Source: Candidatus Methylacidiphilum fumarolicum (GTDB lineage Bacteria; Verrucomicrobiota; Verrucomicrobiia; Methylacidiphilales; Methylacidiphilaceae). Taken from it: a stretch of DNA of 64,000 bases. The stretch's first letter is position 1. Each line of letters opens with the position of its first letter. Positions 14,363-15,947 of this stretch are shown here, one piece after another. The notes below the pieces were generated by a model that saw only the letters and a program-made list of their open reading frames with translations, was not told the origin of the DNA and searched no databases. The DNA lies in assembly GCF_949774925.1 (NCBI RefSeq), contig NZ_OX458932.1, positions 2,294,001 through 2,358,000 on the forward strand, in the 5' to 3' direction. A program made the translations under genes and the position numbers.

Positions 14363-14426
14363 TTAACAAAGAATATTGTTAAAATGTATCATTCTCAATC
14401 AAAATATTCAGGGTCATTCTCAACCA
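14363..14426. promoter_or_regulatory. Inverted and direct repeats upstream of nuoI
   Basis: Two small repeats precede nuoI. One is an inverted repeat, TTAACAA-AGAATA-TTGTTAA (14363-14382). The other is a 13-base direct repeat with one mismatch, TCATTCTCAATCA at 14389 and TCATTCTCAACCA at 14414, with a 25-base period. On the minus strand the direct repeat reads TTGAGAATGA, which resembles half of a Fur box, but there is no full palindrome. A transcription-factor site is possible and unproven. Confidence 0.3.
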
Positions 14427-14439
14427 GATAAATCGGGTG

Positions 14440-14830
14440 AGCTTCTAACTAATATACACGACACGGCTTGTTGGCATCCCCTTTAGGGACCCGTCGACGA
14501 ACCAACGGCAACGGTGCTTGAGGCCATGCTTCAGCTAGATAACTTTGGCCCGTGTCCAGGTTACTACTACTTTCCAGCTGCCGATTATTCATCCCGGCAG
14601 CCTACCCTCTCAGAGCGGTGGGTCACAAATACGTGATGCGTGTTGGATACGCCACCACCTGGCCAGTGGGTGAATATTAACGCCACCTCCCACCTTTCGT
14701 GCATCACCAATTTCGTCCATTCGGCTTATGGTGCCAGCCGTTTCCAGACACCAGCTAGACATTCTGCGCTCATCACCGGTGAAGACACGATGCGGACTTG
14801 ATCTTGCTCCTATATTGAATGTCACATATT
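14440..14830 (-). other. GC-rich, hairpin-rich non-coding island
   Basis: A GC-rich block is sharply bounded by AT-rich DNA. It contains many potential stems on the minus strand: TCACCGGTGA, GGTG...CACC, CTGCCG...CGGCAG, and TCCC-TAAA-GGGGA enclosed by GTTGG/CCAAC. It ends with GAAGCTCACC. No frame looks coding. A structured-RNA relic, possibly the right end or guide-RNA scaffold of an IS200/IS605-type element (these often end in AGTTCAC-like sequence), is a guess. I could not assign a family. Confidence 0.35.
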
Positions 14831-14989: not shown

Positions 14990-15320
14990 ATGATCGTGTA
15001 GCTAAACATGTCAACAACCCCTCTCTCAACGAAAGATACTTGTCGGCAACTACAAATCAGGTTGACCAGCGTAAGTTGCGGAGCAGTGGCAATGCAAACG
15101 TGAGTGATAGGCAAGACAAGACCCACTCCAGGGTGCTTCCTTAGTCCCGGACCCTGGAAGGAGGGGATCATGCAGGCAAAAGGCAAAGCACCGAAGGGAA
15201 CCTTCTCCTACATACGCGGATAACCAGTCGCGCACATTCCCAAGGGGATCAAGTAGGGAACACCTACTCAGCTCCATTACTGGCAAAAGCCGGCAAAGGG
15301 AGCGAAAGCTCACAAGTTTT
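14990..15320 (+). ncRNA. Probable omega-RNA (HEARO) upstream of iscB relic
   Basis: A GC-rich, non-coding, stem-rich segment of about 330 bases lies directly before the start codon of the iscB relic. This is where IscB loci carry their omega-RNA (HEARO RNA), which guides the nuclease. GGCAACT can pair with AGTTGC near 15040-15080. A TCCCGGACCCTGGAAGGAGGGGA hairpin region and a GGGAGCGAAAGCTC hairpin at 15300 are visible. Assignment rests on position, GC contrast and structure, plus a general resemblance to HEARO sequences, not on a covariance-model match. The 5' end, where the guide would lie, is approximate. Confidence 0.5.
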
Positions 15321-15321
15321 C

Positions 15322-15914
15322 ATGTTGGACACAAGAAAGCGGCCTCTGGTGGGCTCTCTTCCATCGCTTGAAAGAGACGAGGCTGCCGATCAAGCCTGGA
15401 AGGGTCGGAAGAACGAAGTGGAATCGCAGCAGGCTCTCGATTCCGAAGGCTCACTGTCTTGAGGCGGCAGGCGTTGAGGAGGTTGAATCCATCGAAGGAT
15501 GGAACCGGGGGCTTTTGGAGATCAAGGCGTCAGGACAAGGAAGCTATCAATGCAGCCGGCACGACTAGTATGGTCTCTCCAGAGGCTATCTCGTGCAGCG
15601 GAAGGTGGCTTTTGGTTTTCGGACAGGGGGAAATCGCGAGGGTTGTAGTTCCGACGGGTAAGAAGGATGGTACTTATCTGGATCGTGTCGTCATTCGGGT
15701 CAGTGGCAGTTTCAACATTCAGACCGCAACGGGTCTGATACAAGGCATCCATCACCGATTCTCTACCTTGATACAACGGATGGAGGAGTATGGATATTCG
15801 TGGACCAAGATAGCATTGGAGAAAGGAGAGGGAGAGGCAGGAACAGGGGCGGCTCACGCCGCCGCGCTATCCCCCCACGGCCTGAACACCTGGGTTTCTT
15901 GCGCTATTGGATGA
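15322..15914 (+). pseudogene. iscB: Degenerate iscB (RNA-guided nuclease of IS200/IS605 type)
   Basis: Several fragments match IscB. The frame from ATG 15322 begins MLDTRKRPL, like an IscB N-terminus. The next frame reads WALFHRLKETRLP...GRTKWNRSRL and then SIPKAHCLEAAG, the RuvC-III region. After a stop at 15568 a further frame gives GEIARVVVPTGKKDGTYLDR and SGSFNIQTATGLIQGIHHRF, the IscB C-terminal domain, ending at 15914. The bridge helix, RuvC-II and HNH domains are missing between residue 9 and RuvC-III. This implies a large internal deletion near 15347 plus at least one frameshift. It cannot make an active nuclease. GC content is higher than in the flanks, which fits transfer. Confidence 0.75.
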
Positions 15915-15947
15915 ATTAATTATTAATAAATTTATAGATTTTAGGTA

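Follow-up and report, generated by a model that had tools for sequence, protein, structure and literature searches.

The DNA analysed here is a 64-kb stretch (the window) of a complete genome of 2,476,671 bp. Between nuoI and a TonB-receptor gene it holds the pieces of a collapsed iscB gene behind an RNA block, and the locus raises the question of whether this RNA still serves an IscB encoded elsewhere, has been taken over by the host, or is simply a relic. The locus was delimited as an IscB (ISC/OMEGA) element of 901 bp at 15010-15910 (hereafter, the window copy), followed by ATGA at 15911-15914. The preliminary description had set the bounds at 14990-15914; the end was correct, and the start was about 20 bases too early because the element begins at 15010. 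We consider the window copy to be, with a probability of about 0.88, a dead IscB transposon (an ISC element with an OMEGA system). All of its features discussed below are on the plus strand.

Remains of the iscB gene

Three iscB remnants were found in three different frames. The N-terminal remnant MLDTRKRPLV (15322-15351) runs up to a deletion junction near 15350. A RuvC-III remnant in a different frame (15350-15568; WALFHRLKET...GRTKWNRSRLSIPKAHCLEA...), terminated by TAG, matches from residue 269 the full-length IscB encoded at another locus of the genome (L002). The C-terminal, TAM-interacting remnant (15627-15833; GEIARVVVP...SGSFNIQTATGLIQG...) occupies the third frame and corresponds to residues 361-434 of L002 IscB. 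The peptides named in the preliminary description, MLDTRKRPL (from 15322), GRTKWNRSRLSIPKAH and SGSFNIQTATGLIQG, were all located, one in each frame. When L002 IscB was compared with the locus, it matched 15341-15730 (E 1.4e-35, 53% identity, with one TAG and one TAA inside) and 15618-15833 (E 2.3e-20, 58% identity). The view of a collapsed iscB with broken frames was confirmed by the stops and the frame change, and neither outcome named beforehand as speaking against it, a missing covariance-model match or a better fit of the fragments to an unrelated family, was obtained.

Of the 440 codons, approximately 10-268 have been deleted, so that codon ~9 is now followed by codon ~269 and the window copy is without RuvC-I, the bridge helix, RuvC-II and HNH. 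The earlier statement that the middle third, with HNH and the bridge helix, had been lost was right on both parts and underestimated the loss, which includes RuvC-I and RuvC-II. The RuvC and HNH catalytic parts of a functional IscB were accordingly not found within the window copy, and a Pfam scan of its three iscB fragments gave no match because the RRXRR and HNH parts are absent. The window copy shares the lack of HNH with IsrB (IscB relatives without HNH); unlike in IsrB, the deletion that removed HNH here extends over RuvC-I, the bridge helix and RuvC-II as well, is not domain-precise, and is accompanied by broken frames.

State of the ωRNA block and its possible uses

In a local scan, the HEARO model (Rfam RF02033) matched 15010-15255 over its full length (1-211) with 47.3 bits (E 4.4e-8). 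The ωRNA block is thereby at its expected place, 5' of the iscB pieces, as in known ISC/IscB OMEGA transposons with HEARO, in which the scaffold is directly 5' of iscB. The match is sub-threshold: a default Rfam scan was silent at the window copy because 47.3 bits is below the gathering score of 83, and we counted this low score against the dead-copy reading. Homologous HEARO matches elsewhere in the genome reach 94.9 and 88.4 bits.

The preliminary description had regarded the ωRNA as likely preserved, which its fold contradicts. The HEARO pairs of the L002 match were scored in an alignment of nine genome copies against random placement of the same changes, and the window copy keeps 41 of the 58 pairs, with 42.2 expected from random mutation. 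The counts for the eight other copies lean upward because the pair consensus was built from those eight: 58 and 57 in L001 and L002 (P 0.002 each), 54 in both L003 and L004 (P 0.05 and 0.02), and 50-54 in L005-L008 (not significant). The first 60 nt of the window copy fold at -7.6 kcal/mol (z -0.5); the corresponding values are -31.5, -26.8 and -23.0 kcal/mol in L001, L004 and L006 (z -6.3, -4.5 and -4.2, respectively). Aligned with the eight other copies, the window copy also lacks 10 nt of a conserved ωRNA segment, and its RNA block is 71-75% identical to the sister copies, while the short copies are 77-86% identical among themselves. The outermost GTCAAC/GTTGAC stem is intact, which was counted against the dead-copy reading. 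With its pairs kept at the random level and its 5' hairpin domain unfolded, the window copy does not have the ωRNA fold of a functional IscB system, and its ωRNA is recognisable but decayed.

A takeover of the RNA block by the host, such as a role as regulatory RNA for an adjacent gene, is in our view extremely improbable. Nothing specific speaks for this beyond the persistence of the block between nuoI and the TonB-receptor gene, and against it stand the pairs kept no better than random, the lack of a start codon after the window copy (ATGAATTAA) and the downstream gene being on the other strand. A promoter and terminator scan gave nothing above chance that placed a promoter at the window copy, and no evidence of the co-option proposed earlier was found at the locus.

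The preliminary description had also suggested that an intact IscB could use the RNA in trans. The genome search that it called for found a single full-length IscB open reading frame, that of L002 (1822-3141 of the locus). L002 retains the RuvC-I Asp and the RuvC-II Glu. Its HNH motif is IDYIHP vs IDHIHP/IDHIRP in the relatives L044, L045 and L046 (catalytic His to Tyr), and its zinc knuckle is GREGVYC vs RKCAYC in the same three (a zinc Cys lost). In RuvC-III it has PKAYCLDA vs PKAHWIDA/PKTHCLDA in L044 and L045 (His to Tyr; L046 ends before the motif). When each of the four proteins was compared at the positions that are invariant among the remaining three, 30 of 161 were changed in L002, 23 of 154 in L044, 25 of 156 in L045 and 12 of 143 in L046. 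Judged by these residues, L002 IscB appears to be either nuclease-deficient or in decay.

The guide region of the window copy is, by position, the 16 nt directly 5' of the element (14994-15009; guide length inferred), and this guide followed by ATGA was not matched elsewhere in the genome at ≤3 mismatches. It is therefore highly improbable that the locus still makes an ωRNA that guides L002 IscB in trans: a full-length IscB frame is present and the HEARO model still recognises the RNA, but the fold has decayed, the guide has no genomic target, and use by a cutting IscB is unlikely here because the HNH His, the RuvC-III His and the zinc Cys are missing from L002. The idea of use in trans fits better with seven sister copies that consist of the ωRNA only.

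Nine copies, their ends and their mobility

In total, the genome has nine copies: L002 with a full-length iscB, seven with an ωRNA and essentially no iscB, and the window copy. Among the seven, L001 keeps IscB residues 1-19 and 412-439 only, and L003-L008 are short copies of 462-467 bp without iscB. All copies begin with a common first base (GTCAAC in eight, GTCATC in L004) after unrelated left flanks, and all nine stop directly before ATGA. The right element end common to the six short copies was recognised in the window copy at 15790-15910 (86% identity to a short-copy query at 15789-15915), where it stops before the TAM-like ATGA at 15911-15914. As a separate observation, the right ends of L001 and L002 carry GAGGAG shortly before the ATG, which provides the downstream gene with a Shine-Dalgarno-like sequence and is missing from the short copies.

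Uninterrupted sites consisting of flank and ATGA were read by eye in the genomes G001 and/or G004 for L001, L003, L005, L006 and L008; at the L004 locus, 24 bases between two ATGA motifs are absent from the window genome. Since the sister copies lie between host sequence and ATGA and such uninterrupted sites exist, the left flank has the position of the guide and ATGA that of the TAM, as in known ISC/IscB OMEGA transposons. The empty site of the window copy was not found in the sister species because the TonB/nuoI neighbourhood is not shared, and we counted this against the dead-copy reading. The ATGA flank fits the TAM of the related IsrB, measured as NTGA, with ATGA targets cut (PMC9581776).

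With HEARO upstream of iscB, IscB coding pieces and defined ends next to ATGA, the window copy has the parts of an ISC/IscB relic; it differs from known ISC/IscB OMEGA transposons in its internal deletion, frameshifts and lost ωRNA fold. An IS200/IS605-type Y1 transposase supplied in trans would once have moved the element, RNA-guided cutting of empty sites would have helped to keep it while IscB was active, and the locus would now yield neither IscB nor a usable guide. That the window copy is instead a still movable non-autonomous transposon, served by a Y1 transposase in trans, is in our estimate very unlikely. Both of its ends and the ATGA flank are recognisable and full-length Y1 frames are present in the genome, but its left subterminal hairpin is unfolded, its RNA block is further from the sister copies than the short copies are from each other, and a similarity search found no second copy of the iscB-deleted form in the genome.

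We judge the window copy itself to be an unremarkable relic that belongs, as a dead member, to a known kind of element; its family is moderately interesting. L003-L008 resemble non-autonomous IS200/IS605-related elements (MITE/PATE-like) in being short and ORF-less with both ends in common; they differ in carrying a full HEARO scaffold and a site-specific guide position, and the window copy differs in still holding iscB pieces. The relatives of the window copy are a naturally occurring collection of IscB guide RNAs for which sister species carry exact empty sites, and the same family offers a nuclease-deficient-looking full-length IscB (L002) and a genome with ωRNAs and no detectable IscB. It thereby becomes possible to test whether elements reduced to the ωRNA are served by IscB in trans, and what maintains the fold of the RNAs after IscB loss.

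Insertion at start codons and elements without IscB

Among 30 elements in four genomes, the right flank is ATGA in 29 and ATGG in one. In 20 of the 30, and in seven of the nine in the window genome, a frame of 70 aa or more starts at this ATG (counted by eye); the frame after L002 has 161 aa. The 64-kb window, used as background, has 621 ATGA on both strands, of which 97 are intergenic, and 24 of its ORFs contain ATGA in frame close to their start. Against this sample with its rough gene calls, 7/9 at start codons has P 4e-9 relative to all ATGA and 3e-4 when insertions are assumed to be tolerated at intergenic and start sites only, and 20/30 has P 3e-8 under the latter assumption in a pooled test that treats the four genomes as alike. 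An integration site of the ATGA type and copies without an ORF are reportedly mentioned in the 2009 HEARO paper.

In three cases, elements of two species occupy the start codon of the same gene: an ADH gene (L008, L037), a small conserved gene (L003, L031) and a GGTGGK gene (L026, L052). The elements are 53% identical for L008/L037 and 68% for L003/L031 (L052 was left out), the reference being the range given above for the short copies of the window genome and 91-95% for the four G001 copies compared. In other relatives, these start codons are free of an element. The low identities together with the empty relatives point to separate insertions at preferred sites; by chance, 0.13-0.24 co-occupied sites would be expected, and three has P 0.0003-0.002 in this estimate, which was set up after seeing the data.

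The single-contig congener G003 has five HEARO elements with 88-104 bits (L024, L028, L030, L033 and L037), four of them directly before a gene start, and gave no match with the IscB protein or RRXRR. In the structure predicted from its five sequences, ten pairs change on both sides, and these two-sided changes may date from before the loss of IscB. With strict filters, a HEARO match was found in three genomes of a phylum sample of 388, two of them in this genus. A speculative scenario, which we regard as unlikely, is that ωRNA-only elements enter ATGA start codons such that the host 5' leader becomes the guide and the element the new 5' leader, in which case the well-folded G003 copies, persisting as gene leaders where IscB is not detectable, could be guide RNAs of a Cas9 ancestor retained as host leaders.

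The abundant full-length Y1 element of the window genome was considered as the mobiliser and rejected, as its copies have no common ATGA/TCAT flank. In a second Y1/TnpB group, which shows a similar end, the copies read carry TnpA in two separate frames. Two TnpA/TnpB element copies, L135 and L136 (G000:C1, ~2134200 and ~577900), are 98.7% identical, and each has its Y1 domain distributed over two frames, which may reflect either a programmed frameshift or a broken copy spread in trans. At one of its ends, this element is similar to the right end of L002, the full-length IscB element.

Upstream of the window copy, a sequence of about 410 bp (14415-14826) has some 20 further matches in the genome, mostly at 67-78% identity, and a longer copy of it adjoins the 3' side of a TnpB gene. 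It is probably what remains of the right end of a TnpA/TnpB element of the IS605 type, and several of the matches cover query positions 23-205 only, as if a short form existed.
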